Assembly (NCBI RefSeq): GCF_947331435.1
Contig: NZ_CAMZOF010000007.1
Span: 62,001-126,000, forward strand
DNA length: 64,000 nucleotides
Direction: 5' to 3'
From: Pelagibius sp. Alg239-R121
Lineage (GTDB): Bacteria > Pseudomonadota > Alphaproteobacteria > Kiloniellales > Kiloniellaceae
Shown here one piece after another: positions 1 through 22,590 of this stretch (the stretch's first letter is position 1; every line of letters begins with the position of its first letter). The notes beneath the pieces are model-generated. The model did not search any database and had not been told where the DNA came from. It was given only the letters and a program-made list of their open reading frames with translations. The translations under genes were made by a program, and so were the position numbers.

Positions 1-835
1 TCAGTTGCCAAAGCGGGTTCTCCGCAGGCAAGGGCTCGGTTTCAAAAACATCCAGGGCGGCACCGGCGAGGCGCTGCGATTGCAGCGCGTCCAGTAGCGC
101 CGAATGGCAAACGATCCCGCCTCTGGAAATGTCGACCAGGACGGCACCGGGTTTCATGACCTTAAAGGCCGCCGCGTTAACCAGCCCGCGCGTGGCCTCA
201 AGCAGGGGAGCGCAGATGACGATGAAGTCCGCGTCAGCCCACAGATTTTTCAGTTCGCCGGTTGCGTAGACCTGATCGACATTTGCTGTCGCCCGTGGGT
301 GGGCACGCACACCCGTTACCCTCAAGCCGAAGGCTTTGGCGCGTTTGGCGATGGCTTCGCCGCTGTGTCCCAGTCCGACGATAAGAAGATTTTTGCCCTC
401 GATCGGGGTCATCATCCGCCCCGCCCAGATACGGTTTTCGCGGTCGCGCTCCAGCCCCGGCACGTCGAGCGTGAAGTGGAGAATGGAGCCCATGACATAC
501 TCGGCCATCATTCCGGCGGCGACCCCGGCCGCGTTGGTGACCGTGGTTTTTCTGCTGTCCCACTGGCCGAGATGATCGACACCGGAGCCGCCGACGGAAA
601 TCCATTTTGGACCCGAAAGTCCCAACAGTTCACGCGTCGGAAAGTTCGGTGTACCGGCAAAGCGGACGGTGAATACGACATCCGGCCGGAAACTTTCCAG
701 CACCGCGCCCAGGCCGTCGTAACTGTCGCACGGCATCACTGAAACATCGGGATGATGTCGCCGGAGTTCGTCGATCAGGGGCGCCGGCTCGGCATCGTGA
801 ACGACAACTTTAACATCTTGGTCGGGCTCGCTCAT
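1..835 (-). CDS. D-2-hydroxyacid dehydrogenase, 3' end beyond the window
   Basis: NAD-dependent oxidoreductase of the D-isomer-specific 2-hydroxyacid dehydrogenase family; these interconvert 2-oxo acids and D-2-hydroxy acids in the cytoplasm. The frame is open to base 1, giving 278 codons without a stop. I see a Rossmann motif GLGHSG near residues 154-159, the catalytic-arginine segment DISRGG (Arg238) and the catalytic-glutamate segment ETEPLP (Glu267). The catalytic histidine and C-terminus lie past the edge. The ATG at 835 overlaps the stop of the PrpD-like gene by ATGA, so it is the distal gene of the minus-strand operon. Substrate is unknown; a 2-oxo acid product of the upstream enzymes is an inference. 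Confidence 0.88.
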   Translation of the reverse strand, partial: MSEPDQDVKVVVHDAEPAPLIDELRRHHPDVSVMPCDSYDGLGAVLESFRPDVVFTVRFAGTPNFPTRELLGLSGPKWISVGGSGVDHLGQWDSRKTTVTNAAGVAAGMMAEYVMGSILHFTLDVPGLERDRENRIWAGRMMTPIEGKNLLIVGLGHSGEAIAKRAKAFGLRVTGVRAHPRATANVDQVYATGELKNLWADADFIVICAPLLEATRGLVNAAAFKVMKPGAVLVDISRGGIVCHSALLDALQSQRLAGAALDVFETEPLPAENPLWQL

Positions 836-2211
836 GTCAGGCCTCTGGCTGGCGGATAAACCAGATCGCTTAGGTGAGAGAAGGCAATGCCCTCTTTGAG
901 TAGGCATTCAGCGGCGGACTCGATCTGCCGTGACCGTTCCGGCTCGAGAGCCTGGGCGGTCATGCTGTGGAACTTCTCGAGGACTTCGTCCCTGGTCATA
1001 GGGGATTCCAAACCGCCCCGCGCATGAATGTCTCCGGACGCCAGACGGCGGCCGTCCGACAGCGTGACGGTTACGTCTGACCAACGGCTTGCGGGAAATC
1101 TTATGTTGTGGCGCTCGTCTTCGATCACTGTGATGCGCCCGACCAGTTCGGCGACGGACTGATCGGTGAGCGCTGCACCGGCCACGTGCTCGGGCGCAAT
1201 CCGGCCATGGCGAAGCATGAGCGCGACCGCGAAGGCCAGGCTGTACTGCGCATGGGACGTGGTTTCCGGCATGCCGGGAAAGAGGCGGGAGGCTTCGTGA
1301 AAGGTTCTAACCTCAACTGCGGCAACGTCGTTGTCGGTGAAATCATGTTCCAGCATCAAGGCACGTGCCGAATCGATCGCGGCATGAGCCCAACGGCAGA
1401 TCGGATAGGGTTTGATATAGTTCGCCTCAATGGTCCAGACCTGCGCAAGATCCTGCCAGATATCCCGTAGGTCTTCCGCCTCGACGGTGAGCGCCGGTGC
1501 GCCGCGAAAACCGCGTGATGCCAAGAGTGCTGCGCTGACACCGGTCAGAGCACCGACACCGGAGCCATCATGCAGCATGGTCGGATTGTCGATTTCACGC
1601 ATCATCTGACTGCGCGGCCCGTGATACTCGGCGATGCCAAAAGCCTGACGCAGTGTGTTGTTGTCACTTCCCATCAATCTGCAGCCGAGGGCCGCTACAC
1701 CGAGTGCATTCCAGGCACCGGAAGTGTGATAATCGGAGACGCTTTGGTGCAGGGCGATGCCCGTTCTGGCGGCGATTTCGTAGGAAATCACGAGCGCGGA
1801 AAGCGCGTCCCGGCCACTGAGGCCGCGATTGGTTTCGGCAAAGGCAAAGAGGGCGGGAACGACGGCACAGCCAATGTGACCCTTGGTCGGGTTGTAGCCG
1901 TCGTGGGCATCGAGATTGTCGATCTGTGTGGCGGCGGCATAAGCGGCTCCGGCGAGACTGGCGCGTCGTCCATCGAACAGCAGCCGCGCACTCGTGCTGT
2001 CATTGCTCGCTCCGTAAAAATCCAACGCAAAGTCACGGGCGATGCGACCGGCTTCCAGCGAGACGGCGCCTGCGGCCACGCCAATCGTATCGAGCAGGAG
2101 AGAGGCCCCCATCTGCAGGGCCGTGTCAGGTATTTCTTCGGAGGCATGAAGTGCAAAGGCAGCGATCCGGGCGAAACTGTCCGGGTCTGAGAGTCTCGTG
2201 CTTTCCGTCAT
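832..2211 (-). CDS. MmgE/PrpD family protein
   Basis: A 459-residue protein of the MmgE/PrpD fold, the family of 2-methylcitrate dehydratase and cis-aconitate decarboxylase. The family works on small polycarboxylates without an iron-sulfur cluster. The length matches, and so does the N-terminal helical half with the NLDAHDGYNPTKGHIG stretch followed by the KPYPICRWAHAAID segment that contributes to the active site. It is coupled by ATGA overlaps to the MttB-like gene upstream and the D-hydroxyacid dehydrogenase downstream. No prpB or prpC is nearby, so methylcitrate metabolism is not indicated. A dehydratase, decarboxylase or isomerase role on a pathway acid is more likely. Family assignment is firm; reaction unknown. 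Confidence 0.88.
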   Translation of the reverse strand: MTESTRLSDPDSFARIAAFALHASEEIPDTALQMGASLLLDTIGVAAGAVSLEAGRIARDFALDFYGASNDSTSARLLFDGRRASLAGAAYAAATQIDNLDAHDGYNPTKGHIGCAVVPALFAFAETNRGLSGRDALSALVISYEIAARTGIALHQSVSDYHTSGAWNALGVAALGCRLMGSDNNTLRQAFGIAEYHGPRSQMMREIDNPTMLHDGSGVGALTGVSAALLASRGFRGAPALTVEAEDLRDIWQDLAQVWTIEANYIKPYPICRWAHAAIDSARALMLEHDFTDNDVAAVEVRTFHEASRLFPGMPETTSHAQYSLAFAVALMLRHGRIAPEHVAGAALTDQSVAELVGRITVIEDERHNIRFPASRWSDVTVTLSDGRRLASGDIHARGGLESPMTRDEVLEKFHSMTAQALEPERSRQIESAAECLLKEGIAFSHLSDLVYPPARGLT

Positions 2212-3752
2212 GGTTCGCCGTCGCCGATCTCTTCGCGCCGTCGCGCCATATAGGCGTCCAGTTCTTCGCGAATGGCGGGATCCATCGCAGGTTGCTCATA
2301 CTCCTGTAAAGCCTGCTTCCAGATGTCAGTGGCGCGTTCCTCTGCCGTCTGGCTGCCGGCCTGCTCCCAGTTCTCGTAGTTCTGCCAATTGGAGACCAAG
2401 GGTTGGTAGAAGGCGTCTTCGTAACGCTCCATGGTGTGCTCGGTGCCGAAGAAATGGCCGCCCGTGGGTACCGACTTGATGGCGTCGAATCCCAGTTCGG
2501 CCTCGTCGACCTTGATGGGCTCCAAAAACTCCACCATGTTTTGGAGCATCTCCACGTCGAGAACGAACTTTTCGTAGGAAGCCGTCAGCCCGCCTTCCAG
2601 CCAGCCGGCGGCGTGATAAAGCAGATTGCCGTGCCCCAGCACACAGCCCCACAGCGCCATTTCGGTTTCATAGGTTGCCTGGGAGTCAGCGGCGTTGGAG
2701 GCATTCGTCGGCGAGCATCGGTAGGGCAGGTTGTACTTACGCGCCAATTGGCCGCTCGCAATGTTGGCTTTGGTGTTTTCCGGCGTTCCGAAGGCCGGCG
2801 CCCCCGAGCGCATATCCACGTTGGATGTATAGGCGCCGTACATGACTGGCGCGCCCGGATTGACCAACTGTGTCAGCGCGATCCCGAAGAGAGCCTCGGC
2901 ATTCTGCTGCGCCAGTCCGGCGGCGATCGTCACCGGCGTCATGGCGCCCATCAGGGTAAAGGGTGTGACGGCCACCGGCTGACCGTATTCGGCCATGGTC
3001 ATCAGGCCCTCGGCCATTGCATCGTCGAACTTGCGCGGGCTGTTGACCGAGATGATGGTCATGACGCCCGGATCCTTGCGGATCTCGTCCAGGGTCAAAC
3101 CGCGCGAAATCGCCATCATCGCGATCCCGTCGAGTGCCCGGTTGCGCCCGATCGCCGAAACCAGATAGCAAAGATCGGCGTAGGTGATGTTGGCGTCGTA
3201 GGCGTCCAGATGGCGGGAGTTCGCCGGGAGTTCGATCGGCGCGACGACCTGATTGCCGATCAGGTGGACGACGTTGAAGTGATGCGCCAAGCGGATGAAA
3301 TTGCAGTAGTCGTCGTAGTTGCCCGATCGCCGGCCCCGCTCGCGGTCGTGGACGTTCGGCGGTCCCGCGACCATCGAAAAGTTGAGATGGTTGCCGCCGA
3401 GTAGAATCTGGCGTTCTGGATTTCTAGGTGTTAGCGCAAATTTTGCGGGAGCACTGCTGATTGCGGTCATGACCAATTCGGGATCAAGCCTGACCGTGTT
3501 GGTGGCGCGATCGATCTCGCCGCCGGCCTTTTCGAAAACATCGAGCGCGTGGTCGCTGACCACTTCGATCCCAAGCTCCTGAAGGATGCGCAGTGAGCTG
3601 AGATGGATGGTCTCCAACTGGTCTGCGGACAGGATCTCCATGGGCGGGTAGGGGTTGATCACCTGGCGCCAAGGCAACTGAGTGAGGTTTTTAGCTGCGC
3701 TTCTGCGTTCGCGGCGTGACGAGCCCCTTCGCGGAGCTGATGATTGATTCAC
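2208..3752 (-). CDS. MttB-family (trimethylamine methyltransferase-like) protein
   Basis: A 514-residue TIM-barrel protein of the trimethylamine:corrinoid methyltransferase superfamily (COG5598). Members demethylate quaternary or tertiary amines onto a corrinoid protein. The frame has no internal TAG, so this is a non-pyrrolysine member like the glycine betaine and proline betaine methyltransferases. Segments such as AGPPNVHD and the Cys-containing LGHGNLLYHAAGWLEGG fit the family. No gene for a cognate corrinoid protein or its corrinoid:folate methyltransferase is visible in the window. It overlaps the PrpD-like gene by ATGA and lies 19 bases from the isomerase gene upstream. The substrate is probably an N-methylated compound (inference). 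Confidence 0.85.
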   Translation of the reverse strand: MNQSSAPRRGSSRRERRSAAKNLTQLPWRQVINPYPPMEILSADQLETIHLSSLRILQELGIEVVSDHALDVFEKAGGEIDRATNTVRLDPELVMTAISSAPAKFALTPRNPERQILLGGNHLNFSMVAGPPNVHDRERGRRSGNYDDYCNFIRLAHHFNVVHLIGNQVVAPIELPANSRHLDAYDANITYADLCYLVSAIGRNRALDGIAMMAISRGLTLDEIRKDPGVMTIISVNSPRKFDDAMAEGLMTMAEYGQPVAVTPFTLMGAMTPVTIAAGLAQQNAEALFGIALTQLVNPGAPVMYGAYTSNVDMRSGAPAFGTPENTKANIASGQLARKYNLPYRCSPTNASNAADSQATYETEMALWGCVLGHGNLLYHAAGWLEGGLTASYEKFVLDVEMLQNMVEFLEPIKVDEAELGFDAIKSVPTGGHFFGTEHTMERYEDAFYQPLVSNWQNYENWEQAGSQTAEERATDIWKQALQEYEQPAMDPAIREELDAYMARRREEIGDGEP

Positions 3753-3771
3753 TATGACGTTCCTCTCTGTG

Positions 3772-4584
3772 TCAGGCCGGCTTGCAATAAGATTCTAGTC
3801 CTGCCTCGATGCAATGACTTGGTTCTGCTCGACTCTCATTGTTCGTTCGTTGCCAAAAGAGGCGACCTAGGGATTTTTGTTGCGACTCTATGTCAAGCAA
3901 CTGCAGGGCTTCGAAGAACATCGCCTGATTGGAGGTGATGACCGGTTTGCCGAGCGCCGCTTCCAGAGGTTCGATAATCTCGACACTGCGCATATCGGTA
4001 CAAGAGAGCACGATGGCTTCGGCATCATTCGAGTCTGCGCGTTTGCCCAGCGCGAAAACCTCGTCCGGCGTCAGTTCGCCTTGACCGTAGTTGCCGAGTG
4101 CGACACCGACGTCAGCCTGCGAGACGCATTCAAACCCGGCGTCGGTAAGGAAGGAGACGGCGAGAGAGTTGATGTCGTCGACATAGGGCGAGGCAAATCC
4201 GACCCGTGTCACGCCAAGTGCCTTCAGCGCGTGAACGAGCGCGCCGGCGGCCGTCACCGTATGAGCGCCCGTGCGACCCTTGATCTGCTGCGCCAAGTCG
4301 CGGTCAAAAGCTGTGCCGTGTGTCAGAGTGGCCGAAGTACAGCCGTAGAGGATGACTTCGGGCCGGACGCCTGCGATGAGCCGCAGAGGTTCTTCCAGCG
4401 AGGCGGCGCCCAGGCCTGCCATCTGTTCGGCATCGGGAATCTCGTCGAGATCGTATCCGCCGAGCCGGGCGAAATGGATGGAAACACCCTCGGGCCTCAG
4501 CAACGCACTATCCGCTTCCAGGTTGATATTGGAAAAGGGCACCAGAACGCCGATCCGGGCGCGGCCACGCGAAGAGGTCATCAT
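3772..4584 (-). CDS. Maleate isomerase / arylmalonate decarboxylase-like Asp/Glu racemase family enzyme
   Basis: A 270-residue cytoplasmic enzyme of the Asp/Glu racemase superfamily. Two cysteines sit where the family's catalytic pair lies: Cys82 in YGCTSAT and Cys195 in LSCTDM. That arrangement is typical of maleate cis-trans isomerase and arylmalonate decarboxylase. Likely chemistry is cofactor-free isomerisation, racemisation or decarboxylation of a dicarboxylate. Its start overlaps the stop of the aminotransferase by ATGA, so translation is coupled. Beside HyuA/HyuB it could also be a hydantoin racemase relative, but the SCTDM motif favours the maleate isomerase branch. Substrate not determinable. 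Confidence 0.85.
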   Translation of the reverse strand: MMTSSRGRARIGVLVPFSNINLEADSALLRPEGVSIHFARLGGYDLDEIPDAEQMAGLGAASLEEPLRLIAGVRPEVILYGCTSATLTHGTAFDRDLAQQIKGRTGAHTVTAAGALVHALKALGVTRVGFASPYVDDINSLAVSFLTDAGFECVSQADVGVALGNYGQGELTPDEVFALGKRADSNDAEAIVLSCTDMRSVEIIEPLEAALGKPVITSNQAMFFEALQLLDIESQQKSLGRLFWQRTNNESRAEPSHCIEAGLESYCKPA

Positions 4585-5666
4585 TGCAGCTTCTCCTTTG
4601 TATGCCAGAGGGTCAGTTGATTTGCTGCCAATTCCATGTCGGCTTCGCTGCCGATGGTGGCACGCAGGCAGTTGGCCAGTCCGTAACCGGCCATACTCCG
4701 CATCAAAATGCCTTCTGATCGCAGGAAGTGGTCTGCGCGCAGAGCCGCACTGGAATCAGCAAAGGCGATGAGCAAGAAGTTTGTGAAGCTCGCTGGGACC
4801 GTGAGGTCCAGCGCCCTCATGTGCGCTGCAAAGCTGTCGCGCTGCGCGGCTGTCTTGCTGCAGACGGCGCGCATGTAATCCTGATCTTGCAGGGCGGCGG
4901 TCGCAGCCGCCTGGCTGGCGACGCTGATATTGTTGGGGTTCAACACTTTACGGACCTCGGCGGCGACAGCCGGCGGGAAGAGGCCCCAGCCGACCCGCGA
5001 TCCCGCGAGGCCATAGGCCTTCGAGAGCGTTCGGAGGACCACTGTGTTGCCGGCCCCGACCAGATCGAAAGTCGCTTCGCCGGGCCGGTCGGCGAACTCG
5101 CCGTAGGCTTCGTCGATGACCAATAAAATCTTGTCAGGAAGCCCGCCGCGCAGACGCAAGATTTCACTGCGGGCAACACGCGTGCCGGTCGGGTTGCCGG
5201 GGTTGGCGACAAAGACGATCCGGGTCTCAGGTCTGACAACTGACAGCAGGGCGTCGACCGACAGGGTGAAATCCGACTCCGCCGCGGCATCGTAGGCAGC
5301 TCCGACCGCCAGAGCCGCTGTGCGGAAGAAGGCATAGCCGTATTCACTCGAAAGAACGCGATTGTCCGGCCCGCAATAGCAACGGACAAGGCAGCCAATC
5401 AGTTCCATCGACCCGGCACCGCAGAGGATTTGCTGGGGTGGAAGCGCATGTACCTGTGCAATGGCCTGGCATAATTCGGTCCAGTCTGGATCGGGATAGA
5501 GCCGCGAAGATGCCAGGGTGTCCTGCGCCGCTGCGATGGCTCGGGGGCTCGGCGGCACTGCGCTTTCATTCTGTGCCAGGGAAATTAAGGTTTTGCCGCC
5601 GGGCGCGGTGAGATCGGCAAGAGCATAAGATGCCATGGCGGCGATGTGGTCGTTAGGCTTGATCAT
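4581..5666 (-). CDS. HisC-like class I/II aminotransferase
   Basis: A 361-residue PLP-dependent aminotransferase related to histidinol-phosphate aminotransferase. Visible motifs are NPGNPTG at 155-161, DEAY at 185-188, and the SKAYGLAG segment holding the PLP lysine (Lys216). I chose the ATG at 5666 because a strong GGAGGTGGAGG ribosome-binding site lies just upstream; an earlier ATG at 5708 would overlap hyuB by 56 bases. The gene overlaps the end of hyuB by 14 bases and the isomerase by four. There is no histidine operon here, so an amino-acid or amino-phosphonate-like pathway intermediate is more likely than histidinol phosphate (inference). Confidence 0.88.
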   Translation of the reverse strand: MIKPNDHIAAMASYALADLTAPGGKTLISLAQNESAVPPSPRAIAAAQDTLASSRLYPDPDWTELCQAIAQVHALPPQQILCGAGSMELIGCLVRCYCGPDNRVLSSEYGYAFFRTAALAVGAAYDAAAESDFTLSVDALLSVVRPETRIVFVANPGNPTGTRVARSEILRLRGGLPDKILLVIDEAYGEFADRPGEATFDLVGAGNTVVLRTLSKAYGLAGSRVGWGLFPPAVAAEVRKVLNPNNISVASQAAATAALQDQDYMRAVCSKTAAQRDSFAAHMRALDLTVPASFTNFLLIAFADSSAALRADHFLRSEGILMRSMAGYGLANCLRATIGSEADMELAANQLTLWHTKEKLQ

Positions 5667-7326
5667 CACTTGCCTCCACCTCCTCGAGACCATAATCGAG
5701 CAGCGCACTTTTGGGCGAGATCAGGCCATCGGCCAGGTCTCTGCGCAGCAACTCGCCCGGCCGGGAGCGAGGGTCTCCAAAGCCGCCGCCGCCCGGCGTT
5801 TCAAAAACCAGCGTCTCGCCCGCTTCGACTCTCACTTCCCCCTTGCCGGGCAAGTTTGGGCCATCACCGATCCTGATAGAGCCGGGTGCACCTGCACCGC
5901 CGCCGCCGCGGCCCTGTGCCGGAAACTTAATTCGATCGACGGAGAGGAACACCAGGAAGGGTTTGTCGTTGGCGGCGCGCAGTTCGATGCGCTGTCCAAG
6001 TCCGCCGCGCCATTTGCCTGGCCCGCCGCTGTCGCGCCGCAGTTCGCGCCTGGTGATGAGAACCGGCGCCACGGATTCGGTAATCTCGACCTGACTGCCC
6101 CAGACCCCGCTTGGAAAGGCGGTGGCCGACAGGCCGTCTTTGCTTGGCCGCGCGCCGGTACCTCCATTGTGGGCCAGTTCGACGGCAAAGACCCTGCCGC
6201 CGGCGCGGGCCACTTCCGGCGCACTGCGCAAGGGAAGATCATACATGCACGATGCTCCTTCGGACGGTATCCGGTCCGGGAGAGCCTGGTGCAGGCAGCC
6301 GAACACGAGATCGGGCGTTAACTGACCGATCGTGTGACGCATGGCGACCGCGGCGGGGGGCTGGGCGTTAAGGATGCAACCTGCCGGTGCCGTCACCTTG
6401 AAGGGTTCCAATGAACCGGCGTTGTTCGGGATATCCGGGCCGATGATACAGCGCAGCGCAAAGACGGAGTACGCGGTGGCGTAGTTCAAGGGCACGTTGA
6501 TGCCCTTCGAGGAGCAGCCGGAGGTGCCGGTGAAGTCAAGAGCAATGCCGTCTTCGGCAACCGTCAGGCTGGCGCTCAGTTCGATCTCGGTTTCGTAACC
6601 GTCGATCCGCAGGCTATTGCGGTAGGTGCCCGCCGGAACTTCGGCAATGGCGGCCAGCGTACCGCGTCTCGAAGTTTCGATGATGTGTTCGGACAGGGGG
6701 TCGAGATGATCAAGCCCGAACTCCTGCATCATTCCGCTCAGGCGCTGGGCGCCGATTTCACAGCAGGCGATAAGGGCATAGATGTCGCCTTCGTTGGCGA
6801 TGGGTTCCCGGGAATTGGCCTTGATGATGTCGAGCAGCAACGCGTTGACCTCACCTTCATCAACCAGTTTGCAGGGTGGGATCAGCAGGCCTTCGTCGTA
6901 GATGTCAGACCCTTCCGGTCCCATCCCGAGGCCGCCGAGGTCCACCAGATGCGAGGTGCAGGATGTGAAGCCGATGACGCGGCCGTCGCGGAACGCCGGC
7001 ATGACCAGCAGGAAATCGTTCAGATGTCCCGATGCGATCCAGGGGTCGTTCGTCATATAGATGTCGCCGGGTTTCATCTCCTGCAGAGGGAAGCGCCCGC
7101 GCAGGTCCTTGACTGCTTCGGCCATGGTGTTGATGTGGCCGGGTGTCCCGGTGACGGCCTGGGCGAGCATGCGGCCCTGGAAATCGAAAATTCCGGCTGA
7201 GACGTCTCCGCACTCGCGCACGATGGGGGAAAAAGCGGCACGGATCAGGGCCTGAGCCTGTTCCTCCACGACTGCGAGGAGCCGGTTCCACATAACCTGA
7301 TATTGCGATGCGGTGAAGCGGGTCAT
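5653..7326 (-). CDS. Hydantoinase B / oxoprolinase family subunit
   Basis: A 557-residue HyuB subunit. HyuA/HyuB pairs carry out ATP-dependent ring opening (N-methylhydantoinase, 5-oxoprolinase, caprolactamase) or carboxylation (acetone or acetophenone carboxylase). The family hallmark NDPWIASGHLND lies at residues 93-104. The C-terminal third carries glycine-rich segments near GGPGKWRGG and TPGGGGFGDP. Its ATG overlaps the hyuA stop by ATGA. The pair is separate rather than fused. No biotin or third carboxylase subunit is present, which favours a lactam or hydantoin hydrolase role over acetone carboxylase (inference). Confidence 0.92.
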   Translation of the reverse strand: MTRFTASQYQVMWNRLLAVVEEQAQALIRAAFSPIVRECGDVSAGIFDFQGRMLAQAVTGTPGHINTMAEAVKDLRGRFPLQEMKPGDIYMTNDPWIASGHLNDFLLVMPAFRDGRVIGFTSCTSHLVDLGGLGMGPEGSDIYDEGLLIPPCKLVDEGEVNALLLDIIKANSREPIANEGDIYALIACCEIGAQRLSGMMQEFGLDHLDPLSEHIIETSRRGTLAAIAEVPAGTYRNSLRIDGYETEIELSASLTVAEDGIALDFTGTSGCSSKGINVPLNYATAYSVFALRCIIGPDIPNNAGSLEPFKVTAPAGCILNAQPPAAVAMRHTIGQLTPDLVFGCLHQALPDRIPSEGASCMYDLPLRSAPEVARAGGRVFAVELAHNGGTGARPSKDGLSATAFPSGVWGSQVEITESVAPVLITRRELRRDSGGPGKWRGGLGQRIELRAANDKPFLVFLSVDRIKFPAQGRGGGGAGAPGSIRIGDGPNLPGKGEVRVEAGETLVFETPGGGGFGDPRSRPGELLRRDLADGLISPKSALLDYGLEEVEASDDQA

Positions 7327-9428: not shown

Positions 9429-9673
9429 GTGAATTAGACACTAGATTGAATGACTGAACAGCAGAGCACGGTAAGGTGTTGCGGCGCTCGTTCAGGAGAC
9501 CGTCACCGGAGGGCGGTAAGCCCAACCCGCAAGTTCAAACGACCAGATCGCAGCCTGTCGCGCGTCGGTCGTTGCATCCAATGTGTGCCAAGTCGGTCAT
9601 GGTCTTTAGAGTTGATCGAAGTTGGTCCTGGCGTCAATAGGCAATCTGAGGCCCGGGAATCGACGACGAGATC
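9429..9673. other. Intergenic gap inside the long minus-strand series
   Basis: This 245-base gap between the RraA-like gene and hyuA is the longest in the catabolic series. I found no gene, no clear terminator and no convincing copy of the LacI-type operator seen at 16.4 and 20.8 kb. It may hold a separate promoter for the hyuA operon, but I could not assign one. Confidence 0.4.
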
Positions 9674-10378
9674 TCACACCCGCGCCCGCTCGAACGCTTC
9701 CCAGGCGGCCTTGAATTTCTCGAAGTTGAAGCCGGGTTCGCGGGCAGGGCCCAGGACCAGGGCTTCGGAGGACTGCATCTTGTGAATGGCGTCGGCGAGC
9801 CGGGGCAGGACCTCTTCAGGGACGACGACGGCGCCATGCCGGTCGGCGTGGACGAACTCGCCCGGCGCAACCTGAAGGCCGAAAAGCGCGACCGGCTGAT
9901 CGAAGTCGACGATGTGAACGAAACCATGGCTCGGGCCGATGGAGCCGGCCAGAACCTGAAACGCCGGCGCCAGATCACCCAGGTCGCGCATCACGCCGTT
10001 GGTGAAGGCACCGGACAATCCAAACCCTTTGTGCACCTGGGTGTTGATCTCGCCCCAATAGGCACCGATGCAATCCGGATGGTCGAGGTCCTCGATCACG
10101 GCGACCGCCGGCCGCGGTCCCTCGGCCATGTAGCGGTAATAGTTCATACGCCGCTCCCGCACAGCCTCGGGGGCGTCATCGGGAGGCGCCAAGGCGCGGA
10201 TACGGGCCGTGCGGGCGAAGCCGCAGATCGCGGGCAGGGCGGGATCTGCGGCGAGCAGCGTGCCGCGGGTGAAACGGTCAAAGCCGCGCTTGCCTTCGGC
10301 GACCTCGATCGCGTTACAGACCGTGGGCGTATCGACCTGTTGCAGAAGCTCGATCAATGTCTCCGAAATATCCGACAT
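9674..10378 (-). CDS. RraA-like / HMG aldolase family protein
   Basis: A 234-residue protein of the RraA-like fold, which includes 4-hydroxy-4-methyl-2-oxoglutarate/oxaloacetate aldolases and the RNase E inhibitor RraA. The metal- and substrate-binding segment G-x(5)-N-G-V-M-R-D is present, with Arg131 and Asp132 in the positions used by the aldolases. A short tail follows DRHGAVVVP. An AAGGA ribosome-binding site precedes the ATG. The catabolic context favours an aldolase or decarboxylase of a 2-oxo acid over RNase E regulation. A decarboxylating aldolase would suit a pathway that ends in pyruvate (inference). Confidence 0.85.
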   Translation of the reverse strand: MSDISETLIELLQQVDTPTVCNAIEVAEGKRGFDRFTRGTLLAADPALPAICGFARTARIRALAPPDDAPEAVRERRMNYYRYMAEGPRPAVAVIEDLDHPDCIGAYWGEINTQVHKGFGLSGAFTNGVMRDLGDLAPAFQVLAGSIGPSHGFVHIVDFDQPVALFGLQVAPGEFVHADRHGAVVVPEEVLPRLADAIHKMQSSEALVLGPAREPGFNFEKFKAAWEAFERARV

Positions 10379-10395
10379 CCTTTTGTTTTCCTTAT

Positions 10396-11100
10396 TTATA
10401 TGCTCGTTAAAAATTCATCCATCAAGCGCGTGACGGAGTCGGCTTGTTCGAGCGTTGAGATGTGACCGGCGCCATGAACGACATGGAGCGTGGCTGCCTT
10501 CAGCAGGCCGGCCATGGCCTGGTGACGGGCGGGTGGACAAAGCGCGTCTTCCGCACCGCAGAGAAGCAGAACCGGCTGCGGCCAACGGGATAAGACATCG
10601 CTGTAATCCCGGCGCGTCATCAGCGCTCGGGACTGTGCGATGAAAACCTCTTCACCGAGATCCATCGCCATCTCGACCAGCTGATCGAGCAACCCGTGAT
10701 CGCCTCGGTTACCTTCGGCGAGGTAGTGCGGTTTCATCTCCTTGACGATGATCTGTCTGAGGTGTCCGGCCCGCACGTCGGCGATCTGGCGTTCGCGAAT
10801 GGTGCGGCGTTCGGCGGTGTCAGCGAGATGATTGCTGTCCAGGATGATCACCCGTTCGATCCGCGCGGGGGCCTGGGACATCATCTCCATGGCGGCGATC
10901 CCGCCCATCGAGAGACCCGCGAGCGAGAAGCGCTCGAACCGAATCCGCTTCAACGCCGCTTCGACAAGAGCCTCCATTGTGTCGCCGTCCGCGAGGCTGG
11001 CGACGTGCAGGTCGAACCGCTGTTCGAAGTGAGCTATCTGTGGTTCGAACAAACGTGCGTCGCACATCATGCCGGGCAGGAGGACGAGGCCGGGTTTCAT
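10396..11100 (-). CDS. Alpha/beta hydrolase
   Basis: A 234-residue cytoplasmic alpha/beta-hydrolase with no signal peptide. The nucleophile elbow is GLSMGG with Ser64. A likely acid is Asp in GAEDALCPP near residue 185, and the histidine is in GAGHIST near 215. Family members hydrolyse esters, lactones, thioesters or C-C bonds. It sits between the MetE-like and RraA-like genes of the same strand, 47 bases after the first and 17 before the second. It probably acts on a pathway ester or lactone; the substrate cannot be read from the sequence. Confidence 0.85.
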   Translation of the reverse strand: MKPGLVLLPGMMCDARLFEPQIAHFEQRFDLHVASLADGDTMEALVEAALKRIRFERFSLAGLSMGGIAAMEMMSQAPARIERVIILDSNHLADTAERRTIRERQIADVRAGHLRQIIVKEMKPHYLAEGNRGDHGLLDQLVEMAMDLGEEVFIAQSRALMTRRDYSDVLSRWPQPVLLLCGAEDALCPPARHQAMAGLLKAATLHVVHGAGHISTLEQADSVTRLMDEFLTSI

Positions 11101-11147
11101 GACGGGCGTTTCATGAATTGTTTATCATGATGAGGGCTCGGTTCAGC

Positions 11148-12275
11148 TCACTGCCCTGCGATGGCGGCTCCGTCGGATAGCGCTTTGAGCTTGGCATAGG
11201 CGATTTCGGGATCGACGGCGCCGAAGCCGGCGAAGGTTCCGAAGCCGCAGTCGGAGCCGGCAATTACGCGATCCGGTCCGACGATGTTTGTGAAGCGCTG
11301 AATACGCTGAGCGACCAGTTCCGGATGCTCCACGAAGTTGGTGGTGGTGTCGACCACGCCCGGCACAAGGACTTTGTCGTCGGGGATTTCAGATTTGCGG
11401 TCCCGGAAAACGGTCCATTCGTGGGCGTGGCGCGGGTTCGAGGTCTCGAAGAGAACATAGCGCGCGCGCGTCTTCATCAGCACAGGAAAGACTTTCGCCA
11501 TATCGATATCGCAGACATGGGGACCTTCGTAGTTGCCCCAGCAGATATGGATCCGAACACGCTCCTGTGGCACGTCGCGCAGGGCGTGATTGAGAGCCTC
11601 GACGTGGCTCTCGGCGATTTTGACGAAGTCTTCATCGGAGAGATCGGCGAAGAGCATGTGGCGGGACAGCGCCAGGTCCGGACAATCCAGTTGCAAGTCC
11701 AGTCCGGATGCCACGATGGTTTCGTATTCCATCTTCATGGCCTCGGCGAGAGCAGCCAGATAGTCTTCGCGCGACGCATAGTGCTGGTTCTGCAGAAACA
11801 GCGAGATCACGCCGGGAGAGGCGGCGTTCATAAATCCGCGCGCCGCACCGTGCTTGACCATAGCGGCCTTGAGATTGGCGATATCTTTGTTGAGTTCGTC
11901 CTGCCCCTTAGACGTGACGTCACCGGTGCACATGGGGCGGGCATATTGCGGTGTGCCGCCTGCTTTGGCGAGCCGCTCCAGAAAGGTTGGGTAGAGCTTC
12001 AGGTCGGCCGGCGCGTTGCGCGGACTGTCGCCCGAAAAGCCGCTGTAGCGATCCTTGACGTAGGTCGCGTAGGAGATCTTGGAGGTTTCCCCATCCGAGA
12101 CAATGTCGACACCGGCCTCCACCTGCCTGCGGACCGTTTCGTCAGCGGCTGCGGTCATGGCCGAGTCGAAGGCCGACTGATCGAATTCCTCGCCGCGTTC
12201 ACGCGCAAAGATGAAGTCGACGACGTCTTGCGTCCGGGGGAGTGAACCCACATGGGTAGTCGTTATTTTGGTCAT
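11148..12275 (-). CDS. MetE C-terminal-like zinc methyltransferase family protein
   Basis: A 375-residue protein of the cobalamin-independent methionine synthase catalytic-domain family (COG0620), which also includes epoxyalkane:coenzyme M transferase. The zinc ligand set is visible: His243 and Cys245 in RIHICWG, Glu277 in LFETSN and Cys343 in AGSDCGFG. The N-terminal MetE domain is absent, so it is not a folate-using MetE of normal length. Enzymes of this size activate a thiol on zinc for alkyl transfer. It is the only gene in the series able to act as a thiol methyl acceptor, of interest given the MttB-like gene downstream. Physiological reaction unknown. Confidence 0.88.
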   Translation of the reverse strand: MTKITTTHVGSLPRTQDVVDFIFARERGEEFDQSAFDSAMTAAADETVRRQVEAGVDIVSDGETSKISYATYVKDRYSGFSGDSPRNAPADLKLYPTFLERLAKAGGTPQYARPMCTGDVTSKGQDELNKDIANLKAAMVKHGAARGFMNAASPGVISLFLQNQHYASREDYLAALAEAMKMEYETIVASGLDLQLDCPDLALSRHMLFADLSDEDFVKIAESHVEALNHALRDVPQERVRIHICWGNYEGPHVCDIDMAKVFPVLMKTRARYVLFETSNPRHAHEWTVFRDRKSEIPDDKVLVPGVVDTTTNFVEHPELVAQRIQRFTNIVGPDRVIAGSDCGFGTFAGFGAVDPEIAYAKLKALSDGAAIAGQ

Positions 12276-12294
12276 GTAAAAGCTCTCTCGAAGA

Positions 12295-13263
12295 TCACAT
12301 CAGGGCGTGGGTGGGGCCGGCGGGATCGTCTGTGTTTACGACGCGGTAGAGACTGGCTTCGCCGGTCATGGATGGAACCAGGCTTCTGTCGAATCCTGGC
12401 GGCAATGAGCAGGTGTCGCCCGGTGCGAGCACGGTTTCGCGGCCGTTCCAGGTCAGCCGCCAGTGACCGCGCATGACCATCAGGACTTCGTGCCGGTTAC
12501 TGCTGTAGGGCGTTTCCGGGATCGAGCCGCGGGTCAGCAGCTCGACCTCGAAACCGGGGCGGTCAGCGATGATCCCCTCTGCTCCGATGACCTTGACTGG
12601 GGCGCCGGACGCCATTGCCATCAGGTTCCAGTAGCGCTGTACGAAGTTCGGTACGACCTTGCTGGCGGGAACCTCCGGGAAAGCCTGCAGCTCTTCGTCG
12701 GTGAGAAGCGGCATGGGCTTTACGTTGTCGGGCGGGCCTTCGCCTTTTTTGCTGTCGTAGAGGATCCCGTTCTCACCCAGGATCAGGCCGTGGTCTTTGG
12801 CTTCTTCAATCACTTGCGGCGCCCAGATCACGCCGCCGCCGGAATCGTCGCCGCCCAGGATTGACATAATCATACCGTAGTCGGTGCCGACGTTTTCGAA
12901 ACCGCGGAAGACACCTGTCGGGATGTTGAAGATATCGCCTTCTTCCAGCACCACTTCGCCCGCCGTGCCCCAGCGGCCCCAAAAAAAGCGCCAACGCCCT
13001 TTGAGCACGAAGAAGACCTCGGCAGTGCGATGGGTGTGCAGGGAGTTCTTGCACTTGGGCGGTTGCCCGGCGGCGCCGATGTTAAAGCCGGGGGTATCCT
13101 TGATGTGCACGTGCTGGTCGGGACTCTCCGAGACACCGCCGCCGATGATGGTGAAGTTTTCCTTCTGATCCGAGCCGGGCGTGTGCGCGTCGATGAACGC
13201 CGTCCTGCAGGGTTTCAGATCGCCGTAGCGAACGATGTGCCGTTCCATATCTTGCGGTGTCAT
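12295..13263 (-). CDS. Two-domain cupin protein
   Basis: A 322-residue bicupin. The N-terminal cupin shows the metal-binding pattern HTHRTAEVFFVLKG followed by EEGDIFNIPTGVFRGFEN near residues 75-125. The C-terminal copy shows SNRHEVLMVMRGHW and APGDTCSLPPGFDRSL near 260-300 but lacks the HxH pair, so only the first is likely to bind a metal. Bicupins are often dioxygenases or isomerases acting on small acids. It lies seven bases from the SnoaL-like gene and 19 from the MetE-like gene, so it is co-transcribed. A catalytic rather than regulatory role is inferred because it has no DNA-binding domain. Confidence 0.8.
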   Translation of the reverse strand: MTPQDMERHIVRYGDLKPCRTAFIDAHTPGSDQKENFTIIGGGVSESPDQHVHIKDTPGFNIGAAGQPPKCKNSLHTHRTAEVFFVLKGRWRFFWGRWGTAGEVVLEEGDIFNIPTGVFRGFENVGTDYGMIMSILGGDDSGGGVIWAPQVIEEAKDHGLILGENGILYDSKKGEGPPDNVKPMPLLTDEELQAFPEVPASKVVPNFVQRYWNLMAMASGAPVKVIGAEGIIADRPGFEVELLTRGSIPETPYSSNRHEVLMVMRGHWRLTWNGRETVLAPGDTCSLPPGFDRSLVPSMTGEASLYRVVNTDDPAGPTHALM

Positions 13264-13269
13264 ACCTGA

Positions 13270-14244
13270 TTACCCGGTGTGTAGGAGGATCTGCTTCCAG
13301 ATCGAAATTTCATCAAAGAGCGTGAACTCGCGGCGCAGGCCCCAGGGCCCGAATTCGGCGTGACTGAAGCCCATCACATGCACCTGCGCGCCGCTCGGGG
13401 CACCGAAGAGGCCAAAGCCGTCGTGTTTGCCGGTCAGGGACCAGCGGATTGCGGCTCGCGGCGGCATCATAGGATCCTCGCGCCCGATCTGATGATGGAT
13501 TTCAAAGTCGGCGGAGGGGAAGGACGAACGCAGGCTCATCCAGAACTTCTCGGCAGCGTCCCAGGAATGTCCGCCATGGCCGCCCGGATGTTCGATCCGG
13601 CAAGCGCGGTCGTAATGCGACCGGATGACCGCGACGTCGGCCTTGCTGATACGTGTCAGGATTTCCGCAAGGCGCAGACCGTATTCGTTGTCATTGCCAC
13701 GCCCGTGGTAGCCGCCGTCAATGTCCTGGTCCGGCATGAAGGGCCTCACGCAGTTTTCGGGACCGCCCTCGCGCGCGATCAGGTCGCCGGCGAAGTTCAT
13801 CGGCTCCATTCCGAGTTGACGCACAATCGCACCAGAATCCCGGATCAGCCATTCGTCGTAGATCGTATTGTTCCGCGCGGCACAATCCGCGATGGCGCGG
13901 GCCGTGAAGCGCTTACCCGTGGCCGGTCCGAAGTAACCATCGCCCAAATGTGTGCCCGTCGAGAGGATCCGATGCGATGAAAGAAAACCCTCGTCCTCAT
14001 TCCCTGACCAGATCACATCCTCGCCCAGAAGCTGGCGGTCGGGAAATTCGGCCAGCGTCGCCAGCGTACCTTCGATGACAGCTTCATTGCCCTGCACGAG
14101 ACCCGAAGGAAAACGCATGGGAATGTCTTTGGCGTAGTAGTGGTGGAGGGATGCGATACCGCGCTCTTCCCAGATCTCCCGGGTGATCCCGATGATGTAG
14201 TCGGGAAAATCCTTCCATTTGGGATCGAAGCCCTTGAGTGACAT
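13270..14244 (-). CDS. Double SnoaL-like (NTF2-fold) protein
   Basis: A 324-residue protein that looks like two SnoaL/ester-cyclase-type NTF2 domains in tandem, roughly residues 15-150 and 180-320. Each has the W-E/Y-H-Y-A pattern of the fold, for example HHYYAKDI near 34 and the RHLGDG-like segment near 100. NTF2-fold enzymes include isomerases, dehydratases and cyclases acting on pocket-bound small molecules. It follows the SDR gene by 13 bases on the minus strand. Its constant company with dehydrogenases suggests a dehydration or isomerisation step. Function is not established. Confidence 0.7.
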   Translation of the reverse strand: MSLKGFDPKWKDFPDYIIGITREIWEERGIASLHHYYAKDIPMRFPSGLVQGNEAVIEGTLATLAEFPDRQLLGEDVIWSGNEDEGFLSSHRILSTGTHLGDGYFGPATGKRFTARAIADCAARNNTIYDEWLIRDSGAIVRQLGMEPMNFAGDLIAREGGPENCVRPFMPDQDIDGGYHGRGNDNEYGLRLAEILTRISKADVAVIRSHYDRACRIEHPGGHGGHSWDAAEKFWMSLRSSFPSADFEIHHQIGREDPMMPPRAAIRWSLTGKHDGFGLFGAPSGAQVHVMGFSHAEFGPWGLRREFTLFDEISIWKQILLHTG

Positions 14245-14257
14245 TGACGCCGCTCCC

Positions 14258-15022
14258 TTAACCTGCGGTCCAGCCGCCGTCGATCAGCAGCGAACTGCCG
14301 GTGACCATGGCCGAGGCATCGCTGGCCAGATAGACGACCGCGCCCATGACGTCTTCAACCTCGCCGACGCGCCCCAGCTTGATCTTGGACTCGATCCAGG
14401 CGACCCGCTCCGGGTCGGCAAAGGTGGCTTCGGTGAAGGGCGTGCGGATGAAAGTCGGACAGATGCTGTTAATGCGGATCTTCTTAGGACCCCATTCGAT
14501 CGCCATGGCCTTCACCATGCCTTCGATGGCGTGCTTGGAGGCACAGTAGACCGAGCGGTCGATGCCGCCGACGTGACCCATCTGCGAGGAGATCTGGATG
14601 ATTGAGCCGGGTTTGTTTTCGCGCTGCATACCGCGCGCTGCCTCGACCGAGAGGAAATAGGCGCCCCGCAGATTGACGTCCATCACCGCATCATAGTCCT
14701 CCGGCGCAGTCTCGAGCGCCGGTGCGTGCCGGGCGATCCCTGCGGAATTTACGACTATGTCGAATGCGGCCTGCGTCTTCAGCGCGTTTGTCATGCCCGC
14801 AAGGTCGGCGACATCCATTACCAGCGCCTCGGCGCTCCAATCTTCTGCGTGCAGCTGCTTCACCGTCTCGTTCAGAGCTGTTTTACCACGGGCAGCGCAG
14901 ACCACATGGGCACCGGCTTCCGCGAGCGCCACCGCGCAACCCAAACCGATGCCCCGCGAAGCGCCTGTTACCAGCGCCCGCTTGCCATCCAGCCGGAAGG
15001 AGGGAGTGCGGGGAAGGTGCAC
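14258..15022 (-). CDS. Short-chain dehydrogenase/reductase
   Basis: A 254-residue classical SDR. The cofactor motif TGASRGIGLG is near residues 19-28, NSAG near 92, and the catalytic S-x(12)-YCASK segment near residues 145-165. The end VTGSSLLIDGGWTAG is typical of gluconate 5-dehydrogenase-like members. It starts at a GTG that overlaps the stop of the HpsN/HisD-type gene by one base (TAGTG). SDRs beside HpsN in sulfopropanediol clusters epimerise the substrate by oxidation and reduction at C2, a role that would also fit here, but no sulfo-lyase gene is seen. Substrate is open. Confidence 0.88.
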   Translation of the reverse strand: MHLPRTPSFRLDGKRALVTGASRGIGLGCAVALAEAGAHVVCAARGKTALNETVKQLHAEDWSAEALVMDVADLAGMTNALKTQAAFDIVVNSAGIARHAPALETAPEDYDAVMDVNLRGAYFLSVEAARGMQRENKPGSIIQISSQMGHVGGIDRSVYCASKHAIEGMVKAMAIEWGPKKIRINSICPTFIRTPFTEATFADPERVAWIESKIKLGRVGEVEDVMGAVVYLASDASAMVTGSSLLIDGGWTAG

Positions 15023-16347
15023 TACTCCGCCACCTCCCGTGGCTCCGCTGCTGCACCGTAAGGGATGTTGCGGCCGCCGTAACGCCGCACCCGCACGTTG
15101 GCCTGCTCGGCATGACCGACGAAGCCCTCCAGCATGCAGAGTCGCGAGCAGTATTCGCCGACCATGGCGGAGGCCTGATCGGTGAGGATCTTCTGGTAGC
15201 TGTGGGTCTTGATGAACTTACCGACCCAGAGGCCGCCGGTGTAGCGGCCCGCCTTCTTCGTCGGCAGGGTGTGGTTGGTGCCGATCACCTTGTCGCCATA
15301 GGAAACGTTGGTGCGGGGGCCGAGGAAGAGCGCGCCGTAGTCGGTCATGTTCTCCAGGAACCAGTCGTCCCGGTCGGTCATGACCTGGACATGCTCGGAC
15401 GCGATGAATTCTGATTGTTCCAGCATCTCTTCGTAGGTCTCGCAGAGGATCACTTCGCCGTAGTCTTCCCAGGCTTTGGCCGCAATATCGGCGGTCGGCA
15501 GGATGGAAAGCAGGCGCTCTACCTCCGCAATGGTTTCGCGCGCCAGTTTTTCGGAGTTGGTCAGCAGCACGGCGGGGGAGGTCGGGCCGTGTTCGGCCTG
15601 TCCCAGCAGGTCGGTGGCACAGATCTCGGCATCCACGGTCTCGTCGGCGATCACCATGGTTTCGGTCGGACCGGCGAAGAGATCGATCCCGACCTTGCCG
15701 AAGAGCTGGCGTTTGGCTTCCGCCACGAAGGCATTACCGGGTCCTACCAGCATGGCGACCGGTTCGATGGACTCTGTGCCGATTGCCATCGCGCCGACCG
15801 CCTGTACGCCGCCGAGGCAGTAGATCTCGTCGGCGCCACCCATATGCATGGCCGTGACGATGGCCGGGTGAGGGGCACCCTCATGTGGCGGGGCGGAGGC
15901 GATGATGCGCTTTACGCCCGCCACCTTCGCCGTCACCACACTCATGTGGGCAGAGGCGACCATGGGGTACTTGCCGCCCGGTACGTAGCAGCCGACCGAA
16001 TTCACCGGGATGTTCTTATGGCCAAGGATGACGCCGGGAAGGGTTTCGACCTCGATGTCCTGCAGGGCCGCTTTCTGATGTTCCGCAAAGTTACGCACCT
16101 GAGTGTGGGCAAAGCGGATGTCGTCGCGATCGCGTTTCGAGACCTTGGAGAGCGCGTTCTCAATCTCCTGTTCGCTGAGACGGAAGTTTTCCGGACTGTA
16201 GCCGTCGAACTTCTCCGACAGCTCCCGGATCGCCGCGTCGCCGCGTCCGCCGATGTCGGCCAGAATGCCTTCCACGATGGCGCGGATCTTTGCGTCATCT
16301 TCTGCCCGTTCTTCAAGAGGTTTCGCCGTTTTCAGATGGCGTGCCAT
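15022..16347 (-). CDS. HpsN/HisD-type zinc alcohol dehydrogenase
   Basis: A 441-residue member of the histidinol dehydrogenase family, which oxidises an alcohol to a carboxylate with two NAD. Zinc ligands expected from E. coli HisD are present: Gln250 and His253 in LLGQAEHGP, Asp352 and His412. The catalytic pair is Glu318-His319 in ASEHVQ. The lid sequence [20 protein letters not shown] differs from HisD and resembles sulfopropanediol 3-dehydrogenase (HpsN). No histidine biosynthesis gene is near. It is the first gene of its transcription unit and has a LacI-type operator 71 bases upstream. It likely oxidises a hydroxymethyl group of the imported substrate to an acid. Confidence 0.85.
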
Positions 16348-20706: not shown

Positions 20707-20792
20707 CTTTTTTCCTCCCACTCATTATCGGATGGCGGTCCGGGGCAGGATAACCTGAAGCGCAGCCGGCCGCTGTCTCAATTCTTTTATCG

Positions 20793-21937: not shown

Positions 21938-22029
21938 GCCTCCTATATCGCTGTTTTCCAACCGCACGTCTACAGGCGGTGCAGTCGGCGTTCCTTCGTT
22001 CCGGAACGGCTCCCGTTCCCTGGCCCTGA

Positions 22030-22590
<561 letters not shown>

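Follow-up and report, generated by a model that had tools for sequence, protein, structure and literature searches.

Fourteen consecutive catabolic genes of Pelagibius sp. Alg239-R121 probably form two abutting modules rather than one pathway

Fourteen consecutive minus-strand genes in Pelagibius sp. Alg239-R121 probably represent two independently distributed catabolic operons, here termed modules A and B, that happen to abut in this genome. The window, i.e., the whole stretch of 64,000 nucleotides that was analysed (contig NZ_CAMZOF010000007.1, positions 62,001 to 126,000), carries module A from position 22111 down to 9674 and module B from 9428 to 143 bases beyond its left edge. An initial annotation had read the fourteen genes as a single series for the breakdown of one compound. 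All fourteen reading frames are present in the order claimed, and Pfam or NCBIfam confirms the families assigned to them; the catabolic gene content and the absence of a recognised pathway are likewise supported as inference, and a literature search, with most subscription journals outside its reach, found no paper describing either module. The extent of the series had been drawn too narrowly, missing a LacI-family regulator and an ABC transporter upstream of the HisD-like gene as well as a further catabolic unit outside the window. In our best reading, module A would break down a polyol-like, perhaps methylated compound, and the substrate of module B would resemble a lactam or hydantoin and sometimes be N-methylated. 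The features are as follows.

20927..22111, minus strand: LacI-family regulator, 394-aa frame (Pfam LacI and Peripla_BP)
19363..20721, minus strand: extracellular solute-binding protein (nearest solved chain 5iai, 'Sugar ABC transporter', 86 bits)
18372..19244, minus strand: sugar-type ABC permease 1 (by position and sequence reading, without Pfam scan; kin in locus L139, 51%)
17531..18364, minus strand: sugar-type ABC permease 2 (by sequence reading, without Pfam scan; kin in L139, 60%)
16473..17531, minus strand: UgpC-type ABC ATPase, 352 aa (NF008653 UgpC, 454 bits against a cut-off of 432)
15022..16347, minus strand: HisD/HpsN-like dehydrogenase (PF00815; HpsN His126 is Met129 here)
14258..15022, minus strand: short-chain dehydrogenase, SDR (SDR family match)
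13270..14244, minus strand: double SnoaL protein (PF07366 and PF12680 in one protein)
12295..13263, minus strand: double cupin protein, 322 aa (Cupin_2)
11148..12275, minus strand: MetE-like protein, catalytic domain only (PF01717)
10396..11100, minus strand: PcaD-like alpha/beta hydrolase (abhydrolase family match)
9674..10378, minus strand: RraA/HMG-aldolase-like protein, last gene of module A (PF03737)
9429..9673, minus strand: gap between the modules, 245 bases from RraA to HyuA (distance)
7323..9428, minus strand: HyuA (PF05378, PF01968, PF19278)
5653..7326, minus strand: HyuB (PF02538, 496 bits)
4581..5708, minus strand: HisC-like aminotransferase, AT (PF00155; in-frame starts at 5708, 5693, 5669 and 5666)
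3772..4584, minus strand: Asp/Glu racemase - maleate isomerase family protein, Rac (Amdase / Asp-Glu racemase; C82, C195)
2208..3752, minus strand: MttB/MtgB-like methyltransferase (PF06253, 672 bits; tree)
832..2211, minus strand: MmgE/PrpD family protein (MmgE_PrpD; nearest solved chain IDS-epimerase)
1..907, minus strand: D-2-hydroxyacid dehydrogenase, 2HADH (2-Hacid_dh; extends 143 bases beyond the window)

Between HisD and RraA, the six junctions measure -1 to +47 bases, and the four-base overlaps ascribed to most downstream neighbours are characteristic of the downstream half (four of six junctions) but not of the series overall (four of thirteen); they join HyuA to HyuB, AT to Rac, MttB to PrpD and, if 2HADH starts at the ATG at 835, PrpD to 2HADH, the full gene of which spans L002:6858-7907 (window base 1 being L002:7001). 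A pattern scan of the 245-base gap revealed neither a convincing terminator nor a convincing sigma-70 promoter (fold z -0.42), so transcriptional read-through from A into B may occur.

The two halves part company in other genomes. A collection of 84,980 species genomes yielded 184 relatives of the racemase, and module B was followed at the best 80 of these, with flanks inspected up to 10 kb and several loci stopping at contig ends; L112 and L113 look like one contig in two assemblies, and L131/L037 and L153/L108 are probably identical records in two collections. Within these best 80 of 184, the order HyuA-HyuB-AT-Rac is intact in 72, and five of the eight exceptions start at a contig end; three loci carry Rac without HyuAB on a continuing contig (L066, L083, L104). 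About 58 of the 80 appear to belong to Rhodobacteraceae/Roseobacter-type bacteria, and relatives of PrpD and of 2HADH (at least 45%) are each present in 36. The double SnoaL, double cupin, MetE-like, hydrolase and RraA-like proteins were found at none of these 80 places (E <=1e-20, best hit per place), and three (L091, L095, L100) have a HisD-like gene (48%) in the vicinity. The open reading frame (at least 150 aa) preceding HyuA is at a median distance of 289 bases and closer than 100 in 4 of 69 loci, and HyuA tends to start its own unit; distance alone is no proof of this, since 46 of the 69 preceding frames share the strand of HyuA. A link to xanthine or allantoin metabolism, suggested by Ruegeria THAF33, was discarded: apart from the module B genes, nine ORF clusters recur in at least five of the 80 loci, and no such family is among them, although the ORF caller was crude and rarer links would escape this count.

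Module A, for which the double SnoaL protein served as the marker gene, retains its order, with losses, in 19 loci outside the window, where the HisD-like gene is present in 17, the MetE-like gene in 15 and the RraA-like gene in 9. These comprise three loci from the search of the taxonomic order, 14 of 16 other places from the class search (G133 and G143 being left out) and two plasmids from the 53 plasmid records with a match, a third plasmid (L155) holding a remnant outside the 19. HyuA, HyuB, AT and Rac were found in none of the 19 at E <=1e-10. Most of the other module A loci also contain a LacI gene; the permeases and binding protein of the window are close to those of L139 but not to those of most module A loci, and the UgpC query of the locus comparisons carried a few extra start residues (frame end 17549 instead of 17531). 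Because the order of each half recurs in many genomes, each is far beyond chance.

Both modules occur together in four other records (for plasmids, among the matches listed), never adjacent and at least 37 kb apart. In Ruegeria THAF33 they share one circular plasmid, 554 kb apart or about 256 kb by the short way; in Ruegeria AD91A they lie 557 kb apart in the record of one plasmid; in Ruegeria SCSIO 43209 they are on opposite strands of one plasmid, separated by 37.5 kb; and in G213 they sit at 0.87 and 3.20 Mb of one 4.19-Mb contig, its module B (L152) being without the aminotransferase. Among the 61 genomes of the order, module A is found in four and module B in three, and both only in the genome of the window; at 1e-50, module B matches came from 56 of 61 genomes, ordinary HisC-like genes among them, and only the three with E <1e-120 were counted. 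In a separate search, G093 (51%) has no other module B gene in L154. The patchy spread and the presence on plasmids suggest that each module moves horizontally.

The original proposal, in which all fourteen genes serve one pathway and its single substrate bears a hydroxymethyl group, a ring amide and an N-methyl group, could draw on the shared strand, the mostly small gaps within the halves, the contact of the halves in this genome and their 37.5-kb spacing in Ruegeria SCSIO 43209. It nevertheless appears highly improbable: the five specific enzymes of A are missing from every one of the best 80 of 184 B loci, the HyuA-HyuB-AT-Rac genes from every one of the 19 A loci, no order spans both halves at any of these places, the modules are apart in all four other records and even here 245 bases divide them. 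The genes fall into two unrelated units, and with regard to regulation it is the neighbouring regulator genes that differ. Since the modules occur apart elsewhere, the hydroxymethyl group (suggested by HisD) and the ring amide with N-methyl (suggested by HyuAB and MttB) would belong to two different compounds; a ring-amide enzyme accompanied by N-methyl chemistry survives on the HyuA side, but not the idea of one molecule.

The closest solved relative of the HisD-like enzyme is HpsN, a DHPS 3-dehydrogenase (8v35, 388 bits; the best HisD scores 254), and the zinc and catalytic equivalents Q250, H253, E318, H319, D352, K353 and H412 are kept in 17 of 17 aligned orthologues. The HpsN study (PMC11382572) names zinc ligands together with Glu318, His319 and Asp352, and assigns recognition of the sulfonate to His126. 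That position is Met129 in the window, and Met in 14, Ile in one and Leu in one of the 16 readable module A orthologues, one more being unreadable there. The proposed HpsN-type oxidation is thus borne out as kinship but lacks the diagnostic histidine, and a DHPS pathway was rejected on this test. The double cupin protein keeps H76, H78 and E82 together with Arg120, which we take to be the fourth expected metal position, and the HHER set is present in 20 of 20 loci including the window; the match to quercetin dioxygenase is weak (E 0.0026), so no dioxygenase is claimed. In the MetE-like protein, His243, Cys245, Glu277 and Cys343 were assigned by motif, and HCEC is found in 15 of 15 readable loci including the window, with one unreadable. 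Cysteine, histidine, cysteine and glutamate residues are needed for the activity of the core-MetE methionine synthase, according to PMC12478193. The module A protein resembles core-MetE in consisting of the catalytic domain only and keeping His-Cys-Glu-Cys; however, it reaches 101 bits with the best methionine synthase model (NCBIfam) against a cut-off of 406, and its gene sits in a catabolic operon in all 15 module A loci having it. From this gene content we infer a route in which the sugar-type ABC importer would take up a polyol- or cyclitol-like compound, the HisD-like enzyme would oxidise CH2OH to carboxylate with NAD, and the SDR a secondary alcohol. The product might then be rearranged or opened by the SnoaL and cupin proteins, the MetE-like zinc-site protein, where present, would move a methyl group (probably O- or S-methyl) to a thiol, and the hydrolase and aldolase would yield central metabolites.

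In module B, two adjacent genes carry the Hydant_A_N, Hydantoinase_A, Hydant_A_C and Hydantoinase_B domains. HyuA has as its nearest solved chain 7hk5 (389 bits), named N-methylhydantoinase by its depositors; it is similar over its whole length to both N-methylhydantoinase and caprolactamase, and both subunits match the CapA and CapB models, yet with 447.6 bits (CapA) and 179 bits (CapB) against NCBIfam cut-offs of 1000. The PLP lysine of AT, K230, is kept in 78 of 78 aligned loci, and no solved aminotransferase lies near it at E <=1e-40. Similarly, C82 and C195 of Rac are present in all of the best 80 of 184 loci, a cysteine pair that presumably marks a racemase or isomerase rather than a decarboxylase; its nearest solved chain is 2xec, a 'putative maleate isomerase', and EutA and arylmalonate decarboxylase were dismissed as identities (NCBIfam 102 against 318 and 92.5 against 225).

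The MttB-like protein matches PF06253 over its full length (672 bits) in one open frame under table 11, free of in-frame stops. The genome contains 14 PF06253 genes and two PF02607 genes, the family by which corrinoid proteins were sought; one PF02607 gene is stand-alone, its neighbours being DUF1638, MTHFR-like, Pterin_bind and RACo genes. This is an MtgC-MtgD-RamA-type locus, in which the MtgC corrinoid and MtgD pterin proteins and RamA are named by Pfam domains, not by orthology to published proteins. Such genes (pterin-binding, MTHFR-like, DUF1638, RACo) are tied in PMC12478193 to the MtgB-MtgC-MtgD route of glycine betaine demethylation in Ruegeria pomeroyi, a scheme that the MttB of the window fits. 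The likeness extends to pfam06253 methyltransferases, one stand-alone corrinoid protein and the accompanying genes, but the MttB of the window lies in a HyuAB operon, and that source reports up to seven pfam06253 ORFs against 14 here.

MttB kin (at least 45%) accompany module B in 14 of the best 80 of 184 loci, a DAO-GCV_T FAD demethylase in five, and in L069 a SoxA-like gene stands in an MttB unit. Module B could alternatively be a non-methyl lactam or hydantoin pathway with MttB as a passenger from a neighbouring betaine unit, a reading that deserves real though less than even credence: MttB is not seen (at least 45%) in 66 of the 80 loci, some of which are cut short, 13 of the 14 loci having it carry it on the opposite strand, and in Sinorhizobium meliloti a member of the same clade lies next to betaine-type transport genes, the 25 kb read there having no annotated HyuAB. 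Against such a passenger role, MttB always lies inside the module B gene run in the 14 loci, these share with the Leisingera plasmid L008 one MttB clade (support 100/99, midpoint-rooted tree), L132 and L153 carry the same MttB too (65-67%), and it extends the operon without a change of strand in the window and in L061. In a module B that acts on a sometimes N-methylated compound, HyuAB would open the ring amide with ATP; if the compound is N-methylated, the stand-alone corrinoid protein of MtgC type would accept a methyl group from MttB and hand it via the MtgD-like protein to folate, further methyl groups being removed by FAD demethylases, and the aminotransferase and hydroxyacid dehydrogenase would take over the freed amine.

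The next unit, module C, encodes ProVWX, a DapA-like protein, an aldehyde dehydrogenase, a second MttB, an HpbD-like epimerase, two SDRs and an FAD oxidase. It adjoins module B here, and relatives of the module C enzymes (60-76% identity) are neighbours of module B in L089 (Arenicellales), which could point to modules B and C jointly serving hydroxyproline-betaine catabolism. This is very unlikely, as module C kin occur in only one of the best 80 of 184 B loci, a GntR-family gene of opposite strand lies between B and C here, and the known route, to our knowledge, needs no HyuAB, racemase or PrpD. A 228-aa minus-strand frame after 2HADH (L001:19084-19770) was rejected as a gene and is read as antisense noise, since it has no Pfam or NCBIfam match and the GntR-family gene lies there on the other strand. 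A bacterial microcompartment was also dismissed, the genome having no PF00936 match.

A more specific proposal, which we regard as speculative and rather unlikely as a whole, is that the modules are two undescribed aerobic pathways: B a cobalamin-dependent one for a ring-bearing amino-acid betaine (e.g., of the hercynine/ergothioneine kind), and A one for an O-methylated cyclitol-like compound. In B, MttB and the FAD demethylases would strip the nitrogen, HyuAB would open a hydantoin-type ring, and the HisC-like aminotransferase, hydroxyacid dehydrogenase and PrpD-like protein would process the side chain; in A, the core-MetE-like protein would be a catabolic demethylase. If true, the cyclitol reading would give a use for aerobic marine core-MetE genes, whose function is called questionable in PMC12478193. 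Splitting the fourteen genes avoids a wrong experiment, because the halves need different test compounds. Moreover, the four-gene core HyuA-HyuB-AT-Rac is a ready knock-out target in strains carrying it, and the MttB link ties this core to the recently published cobalamin route for methylated osmolytes.

The fourteen minus-strand genes between position 16347 and the left edge of the window belong to the families given in the initial annotation, the last of them, 2HADH, extending 143 bases past that edge; their reading as a single pathway for one compound is replaced here by two conserved operons in a genome of 8.0 Mb in 48 contigs. Module A, the HisD half, runs from a HisD-like enzyme to RraA, which ends at 9674; module B, the HyuA half, begins with HyuA at 9428, with 245 bases between, and continues through HyuB, a HisC-like aminotransferase (AT), a two-cysteine racemase/isomerase (Rac), MttB, a PrpD-like protein and 2HADH. 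The four-base overlaps claimed for most downstream neighbours occur at 4 of the 13 junctions, all within the HyuA half's six. The transport and regulator genes upstream of HisD are placed in the HisD half because the same gene kinds flank that half elsewhere.

Genes flanking the fourteen
Upstream of HisD, minus strand: UgpC-type ATPase, two permeases, sugar-type binding protein, LacI regulator
Beyond the left edge, after 2HADH, plus strand: GntR-family gene
L001:7653-18914 (G000:C7, the window's genome), beyond the GntR-family gene, minus strand: ProV, ProW, ProX, DapA-family protein, aldehyde dehydrogenase, second MttB, enolase-superfamily protein, two SDRs, FAD oxidoreductase

Module A is a unit in its own right. 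Nineteen loci outside the window, some of which stop early, were obtained from order, class and plasmid searches and read by comparison with the window and Ruegeria proteins; their genes mostly run UgpC, binding protein, two permeases, small SnoaL, HisD, SnoaL, SDR, LacI, double SnoaL, cupin, MetE, hydrolase and RraA, UgpC following the permeases at certain loci. Of the 19, 17 carry HisD, 15 MetE and 9 RraA; four loci (L010, L134, L135, L145) are without MetE, two (L139, L151) are rearranged, and none carries HyuA, HyuB, AT or Rac (E <=1e-10). On a Phaeobacter inhibens plasmid, by annotation, an ATPase and a SnoaL protein are the sole remains, among insertion elements.

Module B is likewise a unit in its own right. 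A Rac profile search of 84,980 genomes gave 184 relatives, and among the best 80 of these, fetched as module B loci, the order HyuA-HyuB-AT-Rac is found in 72, the eight exceptions comprising five whose sequence opens with the end of a contig and three without HyuAB (L066, L083, L104). At identities of at least 45%, PrpD-like and 2HADH kin each occur in 36 of the 80 and MttB kin in 14; a DapA-family gene follows 2HADH in seven. The SnoaL2, Cupin2, MetE, hydrolase and RraA genes of module A occur in 0/80 (E <=1e-20, best hit per place), and HisD-like genes (48% identity) lie near module B in three, at least 4 kb before HyuA being visible in 65. In the 69 loci with a preceding ORF of at least 150 aa in view, its distance to HyuA has a median of 289 bases (<100 in four), and 46 of these ORFs share the strand of HyuA, the other 23 being on the opposite one; these distances, in themselves no proof, point to HyuA as the usual first gene, which as a rule probably opens its own unit. 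A gene order shared across both halves was seen in none of the 80 module B and 19 module A loci.

Several module B loci are variants. In L066, L083 and L104 the contig goes on and Rac is present without HyuAB, the first two retaining AT-Rac-PrpD-2HADH; a different ring-opening enzyme may replace HyuAB there. L152 (G213:C1:3188001-3208000) has HyuA, HyuB, Rac and 2HADH without aminotransferase kin, and an MttB-like gene (42% identity) nearby. L112 and L113, alike in length and neighbours, seem to be the same contig, catalogued once as part of a Flavobacteriia MAG and once as part of a Roseobacter MAG.

Of 61 genomes from the order, four have the module A marker, three the module B aminotransferase orthologue, and only the window's genome both; among 240 genomes of the class, the corresponding counts are 16, four and two. 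In G213, the second class genome with both, a single 4.19-Mb contig carries the modules at 0.87 and 3.20 Mb. Three Ruegeria plasmids also carry both: the distance is 554 kb in THAF33 (~256 kb by the shorter arc of the circular plasmid), 557 kb in the AD91A record, and 37.5 kb, on opposite strands, in SCSIO 43209. Since the modules adjoin in none of these four other records, their adjacency in the window is the exception among the records seen.

The nearest solved structure to the HisD-like enzyme is HpsN (388 bits vs 254 for the best HisD). According to PMC11382572, His126 sets DHPS dehydrogenases apart, and Glu318, His319 and Asp352 are important for activity. The equivalents of Gln248, His251, Glu318, His319, Asp352, Lys353 and His411 are kept in 17/17 aligned orthologues, whereas His126 is replaced by Met129 in the window and by Met (14), Ile (1) or Leu (1) in 16 readable orthologues. 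The HpsN identity was dropped, as His126 is not conserved; with the seven residues kept and His126 replaced, the enzyme should, judging from its sequence, carry out an HpsN- or HisD-like action on a different primary alcohol. The MetE-like protein conserves His243, Cys245, Glu277 and Cys343 in 15/15 readable loci, window included, and its gene's place in a conserved catabolic operon is as expected if proteins of this group serve catabolic methyl transfer. In the cupin protein, all 20 loci share His, His and Glu, and Arg occupies the fourth of the expected positions. A second operon in this genome (L136, about 4376-11334 of G000:C5:119001-138000) has a UgpC-type transporter, an alpha/beta hydrolase-cupin fusion and a MetE-like protein 54-55% identical to that of module A; no HisD or SnoaL2 kin were found in the 19 kb read.

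In module B, the nearest solved chain to HyuA is named N-methylhydantoinase (389 bits vs 296 for 6yra, deposited as 5-oxoprolinase, which we take to be caprolactamase). Rac, whose two cysteines are kept in 80/80 loci, most closely matches a putative maleate isomerase; for the PrpD-like protein the best match is IDS-epimerase, followed by IRG1/cis-aconitate decarboxylase chains. From these enzyme families, a lactam or hydantoin ring would be opened, the product racemised or isomerised, an amino group transferred, and a 2-oxo/2-hydroxy acid reduced or oxidised, with no order of steps implied.

Beyond the left edge, the enolase-superfamily protein scores 585 bits to 4e8g and 478 to 4h2h, presumably both hydroxyproline-betaine epimerases, and its unit resembles one for the catabolism of hydroxyproline betaine or proline betaine, equipped with an MttB-type methyltransferase and an HpbD-like epimerase; kin of its enzymes (60-76%) adjoin module B in an Arenicellales genome (L089). 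The module B MttB proteins form one clade (support 100/99) with a Leisingera and a Sinorhizobium meliloti copy, apart from the second MttB near the window. On the S. meliloti plasmid (L009), where no HyuAB is annotated in 25 kb, this MttB has as neighbours a DAO-GCV_T oxidoreductase, an isochorismatase-family protein, a protein of M24 peptidase fold whose closest model is DddP (under cut-off), and an ABC transporter of betaine type with a glycine-betaine-type binding protein, and so represents a second, unnamed use of module B-type MttB. By clustering, DAO-GCV_T (FAD demethylase-type) occurs in 5/80 module B loci, and a SoxA-like gene lies within the MttB-2HADH unit of L069.

Across the window's genome (loci L115-L128 and L137) there are 14 PF06253 methyltransferases as against a single stand-alone corrinoid protein found with PF02607. 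This protein is one of two with PF02607 and is grouped with DUF1638, MTHFR-like, pterin-binding and RACo genes; the other lies within an open frame of 1175 aa. PMC12478193 links such gene kinds to MtgC, MtgD, MetF2 and RamA and reports up to seven PF06253 methyltransferases; its R. pomeroyi loci are spread over several places.

Both modules are built from known enzyme families, in combinations not found in print in a literature search, and module B is the better target of the two.
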